Assembly (NCBI GenBank): GCA_021155885.1
Contig: JAJNBB010000021.1
Location: 1 to 36,441, forward strand
From: Fibrobacteria bacterium
GTDB taxonomy: Bacteria > Fibrobacterota > Fibrobacteria > UBA11236
Reading direction: 5' to 3'
Length of the DNA stretch: 36,441 nucleotides
Under the pieces are notes generated by a model. The model saw only the letters and a list, made by a program, of their open reading frames with translations, ran no database searches and was not told the DNA's origin. Below, in pieces: positions 12,269 through 20,827 of the stretch; position 1 is the first letter of the stretch; every line of letters starts with the position of its first letter. The position numbers and the translations under genes are program-made.

Positions 12269-13822
12269 TCAGGCGTCGTGGGTAACGGTTTCACGCACCG
12301 GATCCGAGGTCAGATCGCGCGCCGAGGGCTCCTTGGGCCCGGAGTAGCCGCTCGCGGCCTGGGGGGCGCCGTGCTTGCGGAACAGGTGCTTGAAGAGCGT
12401 CCCGGCGCCGCGGAAGACGCGGTAGCGCTCGCGGCTGTTGGTCATGGCCATGTAGGCCTGCTTCAGCACGTAGCGCGGACGCAGGTAGAACTCGCGGCGC
12501 GCGCGGTCGCAGAAATCGACTAGCTGCTGCGAACTCAGGTTCTTGCGGATCACGGTCGTGTTGTGCTGGCCGTCTTTGTCGAGCCACAGGTCGTAATCGG
12601 TCGAGGCCAGCTCGCCGCGCTCCTTGGCTTCCTCGTAGGCGGAAGTGCCCGGGTAGGCCATGATGGGGTAGAACTGCGCGGTGTTGGGGTTCAGCTTCTT
12701 CGCGAACTCCAGCGTCGCCTGCAGGGTCTCGGGAGTATCTCCGAGGTTGCCCACCATGAAGCAGCCGTGGATCAGGATGCCGGCCTTGTCGGCGCCGTCC
12801 ATGAACTTGGCGGCCATGCCGTCGGCGAGGCCCTTCTTGACGTTCTTGAGCACGTCGACGGAACAGGACTCGAAGCCGACGCAAAGTTCGCGGCAGCCGG
12901 CCTTCTTCATCTTGACCAGCAGGTCGGCCTTCACGTCGGCGCGCGCGTTCGCGGACCAGGTGATCTTGAGACCGCGGCTGAGGATCTCGTCGCACAGTTC
13001 GCCCGTGCGGGTCGGGTGCGCGGTGAAGGTGTCGTCCTCGAAGAAAACCTCGCCCAGGTCGGGGAAAGCGCTCTTGATGTACTCGAGCTCGTCGACCACG
13101 TCCTTGATGTCGCGCTTGCGGTAGGTGTGGCCCGTCAGCGTCTGCGGGATCACGCAGTAGGTGCAGCGGAAGGGGCAGCCGCGGCCGGAGAGGATGACGA
13201 TCAGGGGATTGATGTTCGCGCCGTAGAAATAGCGCTTGTAGCAGGAGAACAAATGCTTGCGGTAGACCTTGCTGACCCACGGAAGCGCGTTGATGTCCTC
13301 GATCTTCGGGCGCTCGGGGGTTTGCAGGGGACCTTCGACGCCGCGATAGGCGATGCCGAGAATTTTCGAGGGGGCGTCGGGGCCGTCCCCGCGGACGTGA
13401 CGGGCCAGTTCGCGGGCGGTGTAGTCGGCCTCGCCGACGATCACGTAGTCGATGGCGGGCTCGCGGTCGAGGATCTCGACCGGCTCGGCGGTGGCGTGCG
13501 TGCCCATCATGGCGACGGGGCAGCCCACGGCTTCCTTGATGGCCTTGGCCACCCGCATGTCGTTATTGATCGAAGGGGTGGAGGTGTTGAGCACGGCAAA
13601 TTCGGGCTTGAAAGCGCGAATTTTCTCAAGCGTCTGCTCCAGGTCGAGGTCCATGGCCGGCGAATCGATCAGGAGCAGTTCGTTCCCGTCCTCCTCCACG
13701 CAGCCCGCGGCATAGGCCATGAACATGGGCCAGTACAACGTGCTGGACTTGGTCACGCTCGGGCTCCGCGATTCCCGGGAAAACATCGGGAAATACGGCG
13801 GATTCAGGAAAAGAACTCTCAT
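12269..13822 (-). CDS. B12-binding-domain radical SAM protein
   Basis: A 517-residue radical SAM enzyme with an N-terminal cobalamin-binding Rossmann domain. It opens MRVLFLNPPYFPMF, typical of the class, and CPFRCTYC (Cys216, Cys220, Cys223) ligates the [4Fe-4S] cluster. Members methylate or rearrange unactivated carbons in lipids, cofactors or natural products; the substrate is not evident. ATG 13822 is preferred over TTG 13837 because GGAGG sits 5 bases before the ATG. A promoter (TTGATA, 17 bp, TAATTT) lies 46 bp upstream. A B12-uptake locus under a riboswitch lies 4 kb away, which fits a cobalamin-requiring cell. The purN-like gene starts 12 bp after its stop. Confidence 0.92.
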   Translation of the reverse strand: MRVLFLNPPYFPMFSRESRSPSVTKSSTLYWPMFMAYAAGCVEEDGNELLLIDSPAMDLDLEQTLEKIRAFKPEFAVLNTSTPSINNDMRVAKAIKEAVGCPVAMMGTHATAEPVEILDREPAIDYVIVGEADYTARELARHVRGDGPDAPSKILGIAYRGVEGPLQTPERPKIEDINALPWVSKVYRKHLFSCYKRYFYGANINPLIVILSGRGCPFRCTYCVIPQTLTGHTYRKRDIKDVVDELEYIKSAFPDLGEVFFEDDTFTAHPTRTGELCDEILSRGLKITWSANARADVKADLLVKMKKAGCRELCVGFESCSVDVLKNVKKGLADGMAAKFMDGADKAGILIHGCFMVGNLGDTPETLQATLEFAKKLNPNTAQFYPIMAYPGTSAYEEAKERGELASTDYDLWLDKDGQHNTTVIRKNLSSQQLVDFCDRARREFYLRPRYVLKQAYMAMTNSRERYRVFRGAGTLFKHLFRKHGAPQAASGYSGPKEPSARDLTSDPVRETVTHDA

Positions 13823-13867
13823 GCGCGCCTCCAGCAACGACTCCGAATAAACGACTCAAGCCACGAA

Positions 13868-15559: not shown

Positions 15560-17101
15560 ATGCTTTTTTCTTCCCGCTTTCCCCTTCGGTCCCTCTTGCT
15601 GACGGCGGCCGTTTTCCTTGCTTCGGCGCACGCCGCGGAGGACTCCAAGGAGGCGCGCCCCAAGCGGGGCACGCTCGAGCTCGGCAAGGGTCCGCGCGCC
15701 CAGACCGACCCCGCCCAGGTGGGCGCGATCAACGGGCTGTTCGGCAAGGTCGTGGAGTCGATCACGCCGAGCGTCGTCTCCATCAACACCGAGAAAAAGT
15801 GGAGCGCCCAGCCGCAGCCCTTCGACCACCGCTTCTACGAGTTCTTCGGGCTGCCGAAGCCGGAGATTCCGGATGATCGTTCGCCCAAGAAGAACGTCCC
15901 CCTCGGCGGCGGTTCGGGCTTCATCGCCTCGAAGAACGGGCACATCCTCACCAACGCCCATGTGCTCGAGGGAGCGGACGTCGTGAAGGTGCGGCTCAAC
16001 AACCAGAAAACCTACACGGCGAAAATATTGGGCGTCGACAAGAAGGCCGACGTGGCCGTGATCCAGATCGACGCGCCCGCCTCGGAACTGAGGCCCGCCG
16101 CCTTCGGCGATTCCCGCAACCTCCAGATCGGCGAATGGGTGCTGGCCATCGGCACGCCTTTCGCCCTGCAGAACACCGTGACCTCGGGCATCGTGTCCGC
16201 CAAGGGACGCCGCGAGCAGTTCACCGGCGCCGATTCCTACCAGGACTTCATTCAGACCGACGCGGCGGTGAACCCAGGAAATTCCGGCGGTCCGCTGGTG
16301 AACCTGCGCGGCGAGGTGATCGGCATCAACTCGAGCATTTACACGCGCACCGGGGGTTATATGGGCGTGAGCTTCGCCATCCCGATCAACATGGCGGTGA
16401 AGGTCGCCGAGGATTTGATCTACGACGGCAGGGTGACGCGCGGTTACCTCGGCGTGGCCATCGACAACGTGGACGAGAACCTCGCGGGCGCCCTCGGCCT
16501 TCCCGGAAGCGCGGGCTGCCTGATCCGCGAGGTCACGCCGGGCTCCCCGGCCGCGCGCGGCGGACTCAAGGCGGGCGACATCGTGCTGTCGGCCGACGGC
16601 GTGGAGGTGCTCGACGCCGCGCACCTGCGCAACCTGGTCGCCGACCTGCGACCGGGCCAGGCTTATCCCTTCGAGACCTGGCGCGACGGAAAGAAGATCA
16701 CCCTGAGCCTCAAGGTCGGCGCCAAGCCGGGCGAGGAAGGCCAGGCCGAGATCATCCCGGCCACCGAGGGCGAAGACACGCGCGGGGGATTCGCGAGCGC
16801 GAAGCTGGGCCTGCGCTTCGAGGGCGTCGACGCGGCGGCGCGCAAGCGCCTCGAACTCCCCGCCGACCTCGCGGGCGCGGTCGTGACGGAAGTCACCGAC
16901 GGGTCCCCCGCGGCCGAGAACGGCCTCCTGGAGGGGATGGTCATCACCCATTACAAGCGCAAGCAGGACCCCGTCTTCCAGCCCATCCAGAACGCGAAGC
17001 AGCTTTCCGACGCCGCCAAAACCCTCGCCGCGGGCGACCAGATCGCCTTCATGATTTATAACAAGGGCAAGACGGACCTCAGGGCCTTACGTGTGAGATA
17101 A
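15560..17101 (+). CDS. degP: Periplasmic serine protease/chaperone HtrA (DegP family)
   Basis: A 513-residue HtrA protease for envelope protein quality control. A signal peptide (FPLRSLLLTAAVFLASAHA) is followed by a trypsin-like domain with the triad His134 (TNAHVL), Asp164 (KKADVAVI) and Ser242 (GNSGGP), and two PDZ domains (about residues 285-385 and 410-510). The first PDZ opens GYLGVAID, and both have GSPA blocks (PGSPAARGGL, DGSPAAENGL). Length and architecture match DegP/DegQ. ATG 15560 has AGGAAG 5 bases upstream. It is divergent from gnd, with a 9-bp tandem repeat in the shared spacer. Palindromic element C begins 2 bases after its stop. Confidence 0.95.
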   Translation: MLFSSRFPLRSLLLTAAVFLASAHAAEDSKEARPKRGTLELGKGPRAQTDPAQVGAINGLFGKVVESITPSVVSINTEKKWSAQPQPFDHRFYEFFGLPKPEIPDDRSPKKNVPLGGGSGFIASKNGHILTNAHVLEGADVVKVRLNNQKTYTAKILGVDKKADVAVIQIDAPASELRPAAFGDSRNLQIGEWVLAIGTPFALQNTVTSGIVSAKGRREQFTGADSYQDFIQTDAAVNPGNSGGPLVNLRGEVIGINSSIYTRTGGYMGVSFAIPINMAVKVAEDLIYDGRVTRGYLGVAIDNVDENLAGALGLPGSAGCLIREVTPGSPAARGGLKAGDIVLSADGVEVLDAAHLRNLVADLRPGQAYPFETWRDGKKITLSLKVGAKPGEEGQAEIIPATEGEDTRGGFASAKLGLRFEGVDAAARKRLELPADLAGAVVTEVTDGSPAAENGLLEGMVITHYKRKQDPVFQPIQNAKQLSDAAKTLAAGDQIAFMIYNKGKTDLRALRVR

Positions 17102-17204: not shown

Positions 17205-17227
17205 TTTGTTATCTTCCCCTTCACTCA

Positions 17228-17434
17228 CAGGGAGTCCGCCCGGTAATGCCGGCGCGGACATAACGAGGAATCCCGTTAAAATCGGGAGCGAGCTCGTCGC
17301 TGTAAGCGGTTGAAATTCTCCGGCGCCTTGATCTTCGGATCGGGCGCGGCCACTGCCCCACGGGGGCGGGAAGGCGGAGGGTTCCGGGAAGCGGTTCACC
17401 GCGTCCCAATCCGCAAGCCAGAAGACTCACCTGC
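17228..17434 (+). promoter_or_regulatory. Cobalamin riboswitch
   Basis: The B12 aptamer is recognised by its conserved blocks in order: TTAAAATCGGGAGC, CTGTAAGCGG (17300-17309), GCCACTG (17349-17355), GGGAAGGCGG (17368-17377), and the B12 box AAGCCAGAAGACTCACCTGC (17415-17434). The closing helix is visible: CAGGGAGTC (17228-17236) pairs with GACTC-A-CCTG (17424-17433). Adenosyl- or aquocobalamin binding should shut off the downstream genes. The first of these is a TonB-dependent receptor, exactly the expected target. Confidence 0.93.
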
Positions 17435-17459
17435 GGGTTCACGTGCTGCTCTTCGGGAC

Positions 17460-17535
17460 GAGGGCGGACGGATAGGGCGCACGCTCCCCGCCTTCGCGGG
17501 GACAGGCTGTGCGCCCCTACCGCCACCCTCTTTTT
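17460..17535 (+). terminator. Intrinsic terminator in the riboswitch leader
   Basis: GAGGG (17460-17464) opens a long imperfect stem that closes at CCCTC (17526-17530), directly followed by TTTTT. Inside it GGGCGCAC pairs with GTGCGCCC and CCCCGC-CTTC-GCGGGG forms the tip. It lies between the B12 box and btuB and is the natural off-switch of the riboswitch. A second small hairpin (TCCGGGG at 17557-17563, CCCCGGA at 17571-17577) overlaps the first bases of the btuB Shine-Dalgarno and could add translational control. Confidence 0.8.
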
Positions 17536-17588
17536 CTCCCGAAGACGGCCATTCATTCCGGGGCCCAAGCCCCCGGAGGAAGGTTCGT

Positions 17589-19634
17589 GTGCCGTCTTTT
17601 CGCCCCGGGACGTCTTTCCGGTTGCTGGTCGCGTCGCTGCTGCCCGCGTTCTCCGCGCCGGGCGCGGAGGTTCCGGCGCGCGTTCACGCCGACTCGGCCG
17701 TGCTCGAGCTTCCGGCGGCGGAAGTCACGGGAAGCCCCGACGGGGACGTCGACGCCGCCGTGTATCGCCTCGACGCCGCCGCGTTGCGCCGCTTCGCGAC
17801 GCTCGAGGAGGCGCTGGACGCGCTGCCCGGGTTCCGCGTGCGGCGCCAGGGCGGATTGGGCGGCTATTCGGAGCTCAGCTTCCGCGGTGCGCGCGGCTCG
17901 CAGGTCGACATCTACGTGGACGGCATCCGCCTGAACCAGGACGGCGACGCGGCCCCCGATCTTTCCAAGTGGCCGCTGCTGTGGTTCACCTCGCTGGAGG
18001 CCCGCGCGGGGTTCGGTCCCGAGGGGTCCGGCACGGGCGCGCTGGCGCGGGTCGACCTTTCGACGCGCGACGAAAGCCGCGCGAATTTTCAGGGACGCGC
18101 GGGCAGTTTCGGGGCCGCCGAGGCCGCGCTCTCGGCGCAGGCCCCCGTCGGCGCGGGCTGGAAGCTGAGCGTGGGCGCGCAGGGGCAAGGCGCGCGCAAC
18201 GACTATCCCTACTTCAGCGACAACGGCACGGCCTACAATCCCGGCGACGACGGTGTCGTGCGCATGGACAACAACGCCTACCGGAGCCGGGGGGTACGCG
18301 CCGCGTTGCGCCGCGAGGAGGCGGCAAGCCGCCAGACGGTTTCGGTGCTATGGCTCGACAGCCGCAAGGAATACCCGGGCATCTTTCCCGGCGACGCGCG
18401 CGCCTATACCCGCCGCAGCGATTGGCTCGGCGCTTGGCGCCTGGAACGTTTCGAGGGGCGGCTGCCCTGGGAGATCGGGTTGCAGGCGCGCCGCTTCGAG
18501 GATGCCTACCGGGATCCGGGCCAGTCGCTGGGCTACCTGTCGTACGAATCCGCGCGCCTGTCGACCTCGGGCGAGGGCGACGCGCGCGCGCGCCTGCAAC
18601 TGGCGCCGCGCCTCGGCGCGCGCGCGGATGCCCGCCTGCGCGCCGAGGAGACGAAACCCCGGGTGACGCCGTACTCGGCCGCCTATTCCTCGCCCGACGC
18701 GACGCGCGGCGAAGCGCAGGGAGGCCTCGCCGCGGATCTCGATCTCACCCCGCCCGGGAACAGGGCGCGCACGCACGCTTCCGCGTCTCTCGAGGCGCGC
18801 GGTTCCCTCGTACGCTTCCGCGCGGAGGGCCTGCGGTCCTTTCCGGATACGGCCGCGGGGCTTATCGCCTCGAAGGATTATCGCCCGACGGCCCTGCGCG
18901 CCTCGCTGCAATGGGGCACGGGCGCACAGGCGCTTCGCCACACCGTGGGGTTTCAGGGCCGGCTCGAAGAGCGGGCACCCACGTCGGGCGAGTTGCTCGG
19001 CGATAATGTGGGCGTCCTTTCCAAAATGGACTTGCGCCCGGAACAGGCCCGCGCTCTCTCCTTCTCCCACGCCCTCACCGGCGCCTCCTCGCGCGCGGCG
19101 GCGAAGGCTTCCGTGCAATCCACCGTATTCTGGAACGACTACCGCGACCCCATTCGCCTCAAGGCCCATGGGGCTTCGTCGTTCATGCGCTACGAGAACG
19201 ACGCGGACTATCGTTCCCTTGGGTTCGAGGCGCAGGCGTCCGCGGGCCTGCGCCTCGCCGAAGCCTCGCTTTCGCTGACTTGGCAGGACCTGTCCGTCAC
19301 CGAGGGCTTTTACAAGGGCAACCGGCCCGCTTACCAAAGCCCCGTCGAGATTCACGCCGAATTTTTTATCAAGCCGCCCGCGAAAAGCCCGGCGCGCGCG
19401 GGCATGCTGGCGGACTTCCGGAGCGCTTACTACCCCGGTGACGCGAACGTTCCCGATTCGCGCCGCGCCGCGGAATGGGAGCTCGGCGCCCATGCGGACG
19501 CGCAGCTCGGAACGGGCGGCCCGCTGCGGCTGGCTTTCGACGCGCGCAATCTGACCGGCCGCCACTACCGTGACTTCGCTTACAGCCCCCGCAGCGGGCG
19601 CAGCTATTCCCTGTCCCTTTCATTCACCCTGTAA
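17589..19634 (+). CDS. btuB: TonB-dependent outer-membrane receptor, BtuB-like
   Basis: A 681-residue receptor for TonB-driven uptake, here presumably of cobalamin. A signal peptide (TSFRLLVASLLPAFSAPGA) is followed by a plug domain (about 40-150) with EEALDALPGFRVRRQGG and VDIYVDGIRLNQ, then a 22-strand-type barrel ending GRSYSLSLSFTL with the C-terminal aromatic/hydrophobic end needed for outer-membrane insertion. I start it at the GTG at 17589: GGAGGAAGG is 9 bases upstream and the signal peptide begins there. The ORF-track start at 17310 would translate the riboswitch. The upstream cobalamin riboswitch gives the substrate. A beta-propeller lipoprotein gene follows 23 bp later in the same transcript. 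No BtuCDF transporter genes lie in the window. Confidence 0.92.
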   Translation: MPSFRPGTSFRLLVASLLPAFSAPGAEVPARVHADSAVLELPAAEVTGSPDGDVDAAVYRLDAAALRRFATLEEALDALPGFRVRRQGGLGGYSELSFRGARGSQVDIYVDGIRLNQDGDAAPDLSKWPLLWFTSLEARAGFGPEGSGTGALARVDLSTRDESRANFQGRAGSFGAAEAALSAQAPVGAGWKLSVGAQGQGARNDYPYFSDNGTAYNPGDDGVVRMDNNAYRSRGVRAALRREEAASRQTVSVLWLDSRKEYPGIFPGDARAYTRRSDWLGAWRLERFEGRLPWEIGLQARRFEDAYRDPGQSLGYLSYESARLSTSGEGDARARLQLAPRLGARADARLRAEETKPRVTPYSAAYSSPDATRGEAQGGLAADLDLTPPGNRARTHASASLEARGSLVRFRAEGLRSFPDTAAGLIASKDYRPTALRASLQWGTGAQALRHTVGFQGRLEERAPTSGELLGDNVGVLSKMDLRPEQARALSFSHALTGASSRAAAKASVQSTVFWNDYRDPIRLKAHGASSFMRYENDADYRSLGFEAQASAGLRLAEASLSLTWQDLSVTEGFYKGNRPAYQSPVEIHAEFFIKPPAKSPARAGMLADFRSAYYPGDANVPDSRRAAEWELGAHADAQLGTGGPLRLAFDARNLTGRHYRDFAYSPRSGRSYSLSLSFTL

Positions 19635-19657
19635 TCGTTCACCTCAAAGGAGTTCTC

Positions 19658-20827
19658 ATGTATCGCAGATATAAAGCCGCATCGCGGCTGAATCAAACCG
19701 TTCACTCGCTCAGCTTCGCGGCGCGCTCATCGGCGCTGGCAGCGGCCCTGTTTCTCAGCGCCTGCGACTTCTTCCTGTCGGACCCGGGGACCGAGGCTCC
19801 CGGGGAGTCCGGCCTGAGCTCGCCCTGGATCGGCAAGTCGCTCGACAGCCTCGGGGAGGTGGCGGCAATCGCCGTGCGCGACGGCCGCCTCTTCGTGGCC
19901 AATCGTCATGCAGCCGCGCCCGGCGTGGCCGCGGTCGACACCGCCACGGGCCTGATCACGGAATATTATCCAGAGATCGTCGCGCCCTCGAGCCTGGCCT
20001 TCACGTCCGCCGGCCATTTGATCGTCACCGAGACCAGCTTCAACTACATGGAGGGATCCGTGAGCGTCATCAACGTGCCCGCGAAGAAAATCCGGAAGAG
20101 CGTGATCACCTTCGGCAGCGACAACGGCGCGGTCGCGGGGGAGGACGGCAGGGTCTATCTGTTTGACCGCACTACCGGCGCGGTCACGGGTTTCACCGGC
20201 AACGAGCCGGGAGCCGGCGTGGCTTTCGACGTGCAGACGGGAGCGGGCTCGAACCCCTACGACATCGCGGTGACGAACGGCAAGGCTTACATTCCCCGCT
20301 ATAATTCGAAGTCGCTGCTGATTCTCGACGCGACCTTGCTCGGCGGCGGCGTCCGCGATTCCATCGATCTGTCGGCCTACTCCAAGGACACGGCTACCCT
20401 GGCGCCGCGCATGGCCTCGGTCACGGCCCACGGCGGCTACGTTTTCGTGACGCTGCAGCGCCTGAGGGCCAACTATTCCGCCAATGACACGTCGCTGGTG
20501 GTGGTCATCAACGCCTCCACCAAGGTCATCGAGAAGACGATCGCGCTGAGGTTCCGGAACCCGGTGGCGACGGCCGCGCAGGGGGACTTCCTGTACGTGA
20601 CGGGCATAGCCGGCTACGGCGACCAGCTCGGCGGCGTGGAAAGGATCAACCTCTCCACGCGCCAGCACGCGGGCACGGTGATCACCGAGGCGGCCCTCGC
20701 CGCCGACGTGTTCGACTTCGTTCCCGCCGGCAACGGCACGGGCTACGTCGCGTACAGCACCGACTTCGGCGTGCACACGCGCCTCAAGAAGACCCCTTCC
20801 GCCGCCGTTGCCAAGGTTGCCCCCTAG
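19658..20827 (+). CDS. Beta-propeller (YncE/DUF5074-like) lipoprotein, candidate BtuG-type B12 binder
   Basis: A 389-residue lipoprotein with lipobox LSAC (Cys about residue 36) after an unusually long basic N-terminus. The mature part shows repeated blade-like strands of YVTN/YncE-type propellers: GRLFVANRHA, GSVSVINVPA, NPYDIAVTNGKAYIPRYNSKSLLILD, and DFLYVTGIAGYG. AAAGGAG 6 bases before the ATG supports the start. It follows btuB by 23 bp, so it is under the cobalamin riboswitch. In Bacteroides a surface propeller lipoprotein, BtuG, caps BtuB and captures B12 (established). A like role here is inference from fold, lipidation and position. It ends before a strong terminator. Confidence 0.8.
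   Translation: MYRRYKAASRLNQTVHSLSFAARSSALAAALFLSACDFFLSDPGTEAPGESGLSSPWIGKSLDSLGEVAAIAVRDGRLFVANRHAAAPGVAAVDTATGLITEYYPEIVAPSSLAFTSAGHLIVTETSFNYMEGSVSVINVPAKKIRKSVITFGSDNGAVAGEDGRVYLFDRTTGAVTGFTGNEPGAGVAFDVQTGAGSNPYDIAVTNGKAYIPRYNSKSLLILDATLLGGGVRDSIDLSAYSKDTATLAPRMASVTAHGGYVFVTLQRLRANYSANDTSLVVVINASTKVIEKTIALRFRNPVATAAQGDFLYVTGIAGYGDQLGGVERINLSTRQHAGTVITEAALAADVFDFVPAGNGTGYVAYSTDFGVHTRLKKTPSAAVAKVAP

Follow-up and report, generated by a model that had tools for sequence, protein, structure and literature searches.

Can a B12 transporter capped by a surface lipoprotein occur outside the Bacteroidetes? Thus far BtuG has been stated to occur only in that phylum (PMC6143338), and lipoprotein-capped TonB transporters as a class seem to be exclusive to it (PMC10404256). 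Among the papers that we searched, none names both BtuG and Fibrobacter. The question is raised by a 36,441-nucleotide stretch of DNA from a member of the Fibrobacterota (the window; contig C79 of a 2.59 Mb genome that is 87.5% complete). An earlier note on this DNA had described a cobalamin riboswitch ahead of a TonB receptor gene and, 23 bp after the latter, a lipoprotein gene, and had suggested the two-part uptake machine of Bacteroides, possibly in another phylum and with low similarity. With a probability of roughly 85%, we consider that the locus encodes a pair of the BtuB-BtuG type for the capture and import of B12 (corrinoids).

A Riboswitch-Controlled Receptor of the BtuB Type

The gene order was confirmed on the plus strand by Rfam, Plug domain and lipobox evidence, with the RF00174 riboswitch followed by the BtuB-type TonB receptor and, across an intergenic gap of 23 bp, by the propeller lipoprotein. 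The features of the locus are:

17212 to 17448, plus strand: cobalamin riboswitch aptamer (RF00174)
about 17460 to 17535, plus strand: probable intrinsic terminator of the riboswitch
17589 to 19634, plus strand: BtuB-type TonB-dependent receptor, 681 aa
19658 to 20827, plus strand: BtuG-like beta-propeller lipoprotein, 389 aa, circularly permuted, with an ATG start
19763 to 19765, plus strand: codon of Cys36, the predicted lipid-anchored residue
19880 to 20005, plus strand: relocated last blade of the propeller, residues 75-116

The aptamer matches the whole Rfam model (80.4 bits against a gathering threshold of 31.5) and contains the B12 box, and the genome has no other RF00174 match. The expression platform likely acts by transcription termination, because a strong hairpin sits behind the aptamer, with a long stem and UUUUU directly after it; the fold of positions 17449-17600 reaches -86.5 kcal/mol (z -5.65). 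Upstream of the riboswitch lies a protease-like gene (15560-17101, plus strand), which holds the same place in the window and in loci L002, L041 and L063.

The receptor reading frame as listed (17310-19634) is over-extended, and the start is likely the GTG at 17589, which has GGAGG before it and a signal peptide after it. The genome encodes six Plug-domain receptors, and this is the only one behind the riboswitch. Searched alone against the PDB, the window receptor matches E. coli BtuB, among others, with an E-value near 1e-7, and as a single sequence it is distant from both this protein and BtuB1/2/3 of Bacteroides. The profile of its family (A2) has precisely these proteins as its best PDB matches (2e-53 to 8e-50). 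Four Bacteroides BtuB chains lead the list (2e-53 to 6e-52), 9gbc and E. coli BtuB come after them (1e-50), and siderophore receptors rank far lower. Control by a cobalamin riboswitch is a further likeness. Both marks by which a receptor is assigned to BtuB were thus found, a Plug domain (E 3.7e-9) and, with the A2 profile, BtuB as the nearest family. The structure model of the receptor (AlphaFold2, two sequences; pLDDT 29) was unusable.

The Propeller Lipoprotein and Its Relation to BtuG

By profile comparison, the propeller is a distant homologue of BtuG, a relation reached by the family profile only, as the single sequence is too distant. As a single sequence the window propeller gave no firm match in Pfam, NCBIfam or the PDB, and phmmer likewise found nothing when it was compared with known BtuG. 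The blades had been called "YncE/DUF5074-like" in the earlier note; at the level of the single sequence the backing for this is sub-threshold Pfam scores (DUF5074 E 0.006, NHL E 0.002), whereas the profile of the propeller family (A1) does meet BtuG. In an hmmsearch of the PDB its best match is the BtuG1 chain 8blw_B (2e-13, one collinear stretch of 244 positions), followed by further BtuG1, BtuG2 and BtuG3 chains. For scale, a BtuG1 piece finds BtuG3 only at 2e-4. The PDB entry 3dsm is also a BtuG homologue. In hhalign comparisons, Fibrobacterota copies with canonical blade order align collinearly at 97.8% with BtuG1 and at 96.7% with BtuG2/3 pieces.

The resemblance to BtuG1, BtuG2 and BtuG3 of Bacteroides thetaiotaomicron (PDB 8blw, 8bmx, 8p97) extends to the setting, since both propellers carry a lipid anchor and have their genes next to btuB under the control of a cobalamin riboswitch, and to an aromatic residue at one position of the putative ligand site. 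Tyr239 of BtuG2 is a B12 contact (PMC10404256), and the hhalign alignment has Y, W or F in its column in 51 of 65 canonical copies (BtuG2 residue numbers being mapped by inference from chain offsets). On the side of difference, the Fibrobacterota are another phylum and the similarity lies below the reach of single-sequence search. Where BtuG2 has Trp194, the Fibrobacterota copies have Gln-Arg, with the Gln conserved in 56 of the 65. The window copy is also circularly permuted, and several other Fibrobacterota copies are permuted at another place.

The structure model of the propeller (AlphaFold2, two sequences; pLDDT 58.5, pTM 0.56) is too weak to fix the number of blades, which is seven in BtuG. 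When it was used for Foldseek, the ranking mixed BtuG chains with YncE of E. coli and with an S-layer propeller from an archaeon, so the fold alone does not single BtuG out. YncE and YVTN surface-layer propellers (3vgz, 1l0q) share the fold class of the window propeller, but to our knowledge they do not occur as riboswitch-linked lipoproteins beside BtuB. The surface B12-binding accessory lipoproteins BtuH and BtuJ (DUF4465) of Bacteroidota loci are set apart by description, as they have other folds and are not propellers.

The lipobox of the window propeller reads FLSA before Cys36. A lipobox-like N-terminus was detected in 70 of 77 family copies by a strict script, which missed the window's own motif through its hydrophobicity threshold. 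At least two acidic residues occur at positions +2 to +7 in 51% of the propeller family, compared with 14% in the protein body. This recalls the lipoprotein export signal of the Bacteroidetes, a likeness of sequence alone. On comparative evidence, the Fibrobacterota propeller probably works like BtuG.

Distribution and Linkage in the Fibrobacterota

In a survey of 168 genomes of the window's own phylum, the window propeller sequence alone found homologues in 105 (112 matches), and RF00174 was present in 151. Three quarters of the propeller matches (84/112) follow a listed RF00174 match on the same strand; in 83 cases the distance is 2.0-3.2 kb, enough space for a single receptor gene. Eighty loci were collected for iterated profiles, and in almost all of them a receptor is followed by a propeller. 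Twenty riboswitch loci had lacked a propeller in the first pass; five of them end at a contig edge, and in each of the remaining 15 the profiles show a receptor followed by a propeller. The loci that at first seemed to lack a propeller are accordingly not taken as true absences, since the profile finds one in every locus with room for it. The order of riboswitch, receptor and propeller is not due to chance, given that it is conserved across the phylum.

Most exceptions come from genus g7 and its neighbours; there the two genes lie apart or in reverse order. Here solitary propeller genes stand directly behind their own AdoCbl-II riboswitch (RF01689), with scores of 31-45 bits around a gathering threshold of 36.5:

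L088, 3961-4052: AdoCbl-II riboswitch
L095, 4039-4128: AdoCbl-II riboswitch
L085, 1449-1550: AdoCbl-II riboswitch
L090, 4880-4972: AdoCbl-II riboswitch
L097, 4734-4809: AdoCbl-II riboswitch
L099, 4781-4868: AdoCbl-II riboswitch

Separately, genome G040 carries a second propeller copy (L084, 3746-5035) with neither a receptor nor a detected riboswitch nearby.

Solitary riboswitch-controlled genes in one genus are what might be expected if the propeller were an accessory lipoprotein that binds corrinoids as a surface reservoir or periplasmic scaffold without capping a receptor, its likeness to BtuG reflecting independent recruitment of YncE/YVTN-type propellers. The A1 profile also meets the S-layer propeller 1l0q (3e-12) almost as well as it meets BtuG. 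That match, however, consists of five short repeated stretches, the best at 21.5 bits, whereas BtuG is matched collinearly in a single piece. Pairing with a BtuB-like receptor is, moreover, near-universal in all families sampled, and the best PDB matches of both partners are chains of BtuBG complexes. We therefore regard an accessory role without capping as unlikely.

Neighboring Genes for B12 Import and Salvage

At 19 loci the end of the propeller gene is directly followed by a gene for a periplasmic binding protein, and in most of them genes for a FecCD (BtuC-like) permease and an ABC ATPase come next. For the binding protein of L056 the best-scoring model is BtuF and for the permease of L041 it is BtuC, both scores falling below the NCBIfam equivalog cut-offs. 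Salvage genes occur as well, with BtuR in the operon of L055 and a CobQ-CobU fusion downstream of the propeller at L046 (5717-7699). In L041, a sister species, the riboswitch is followed in turn by the genes for the receptor, the propeller, the binding protein, the FecCD permease and the ATPase. The only FecCD operon of the window genome lies on a different contig (C75) and is homologous to that of L041, with 38% identity for the binding protein and 47% for the permease. Users of B12 are present, as the window genome encodes four B12-binding domains, one of them inside the window. The latter belongs to a B12-binding and radical SAM protein (12269-13837, minus strand) near the uptake genes, possibly a corrinoid-dependent enzyme.

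Some of these genes could also suit a pair that imports another substrate, such as a different metallo-compound or a siderophore, and is merely co-regulated by B12. FecCD and Peripla_BP_2 are families common to iron importers, the binding protein of the window genome scores best, though weakly, against siderophore-binding proteins, and single-sequence scores of the receptor also reach siderophore and heme receptor models. Yet the receptor profile is nearest BtuB, a cobalamin riboswitch is present throughout, and BtuF-like, BtuR and CobQ/CobU genes share operons elsewhere in the phylum. Iron transport by the pair was judged unlikely, and we give a substrate other than B12 very little credence. 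The earlier suggestion of the same two-part machine in another phylum gains support from the phylum-wide linkage, the neighboring genes and the fact that both profiles are nearest to BtuBG chains.

Circular Permutation of the Propeller

The permutation of the window propeller, read from its sequence, adds to what the earlier note had proposed. Blade order was determined in 77 family copies with segment profiles built from canonical copies. The canonical order, 1 to 6, is found in 59 of the 77 and is also that of BtuG, whose N- and C-terminal pieces are placed as in canonical copies. The window copy departs from the BtuG order in having its last blade first, as do L002 and L041 (three species, one genus), and ten copies have the order 3-4-5-6-1-2 in whole or in part. 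The relocated blade, which closes the chain in BtuG and in the majority of Fibrobacterota copies, was located at mature residues 40-81 of the window copy (last-blade HMM, 17.9 bits).

As the blades resemble one another and the window score is just 17.9 bits, the rearrangement might be thought an artefact of repeat-like blades or of misassembly. Against this, the order recurs in three species of the genus, and in L041 the same HMM reaches 31.5 bits. For the other permutation, BLAST alignments fall into two swapped parts between L106 and L069 of one genus (5e-47 and 5e-18) and between L079 and L056 (3e-56 and 8e-27). When the window copy is aligned with L051, whose cut lies elsewhere, the split is that expected of two different cuts (1e-19 and 3e-17); the comparison of the window copy with L043 is weaker support, with a second piece at 0.02. 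An artefactual origin thus seems highly improbable.

The permutation states call for at least seven changes on a tree of the receptors (quick IQ-TREE, with SH-aLRT as the sole support measure). We read these approximately as one occurrence of the window cut, four of the other cut and two local strand swaps (L060 and L072). L108 and L078, both on long branches, meet in this tree, which may reflect a single event or be a wrong grouping. In L060 (2901-4067) and L072 (3728-4852), from two families, the first two strand segments are locally swapped relative to related copies. Genus g9 holds both forms, with L105, L106, L117, L118 and L119 on one side and L062, L066 and L069 on the other.

Wherever the start of a permuted copy can be read, the lipobox is still N-terminal. 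Because it stays there while the blades are permuted, the point at which the lipid anchor is attached to the ring has moved. In BtuBG the N-terminal linker has been proposed as a hinge (PMC10404256).

Proposed Mechanism and Significance

The capture and import pair would work as follows. At low cellular B12, the riboswitch would let transcription run on into the genes for the receptor and the N-terminally lipid-anchored propeller. The latter, which we infer to be displayed on the outer surface, would bind a corrinoid in its central pocket and, as a hinged lid on the receptor mouth, pass it to the receptor. Driven by TonB, the corrinoid would then enter the periplasm, from where an ABC importer resembling BtuFCD, whose genes lie elsewhere in the window genome and beside the pair in the sister species, would carry it into the cytoplasm. 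In the window genus the lipid anchor and presumed hinge would meet the ring one blade away from their position in BtuG.

On a wider scale, we lean toward the view that lidded TonB-dependent B12 transport is phylum-wide in the Fibrobacterota and either old in the Fibrobacterota-Bacteroidota group or transferred from one phylum to another. The lid would have been permuted repeatedly, by one cut in the window's genus and another on about four separate occasions, so that the hinge moved while the corrinoid site and the receptor were kept. If the hinge was indeed moved round in this way, lid opening would not need one fixed hinge position. The recurrent permutants would be natural experiments on the "pedal bin" hinge, permitting permuted and canonical lids to be compared within one genus. 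Members of Fibrobacter are known as cellulose degraders of the rumen. If this reading is true, the lid mechanism extends beyond the Bacteroidetes to the phylum of Fibrobacter, and with it to the rumen, a setting where the supply of B12 matters to the host.
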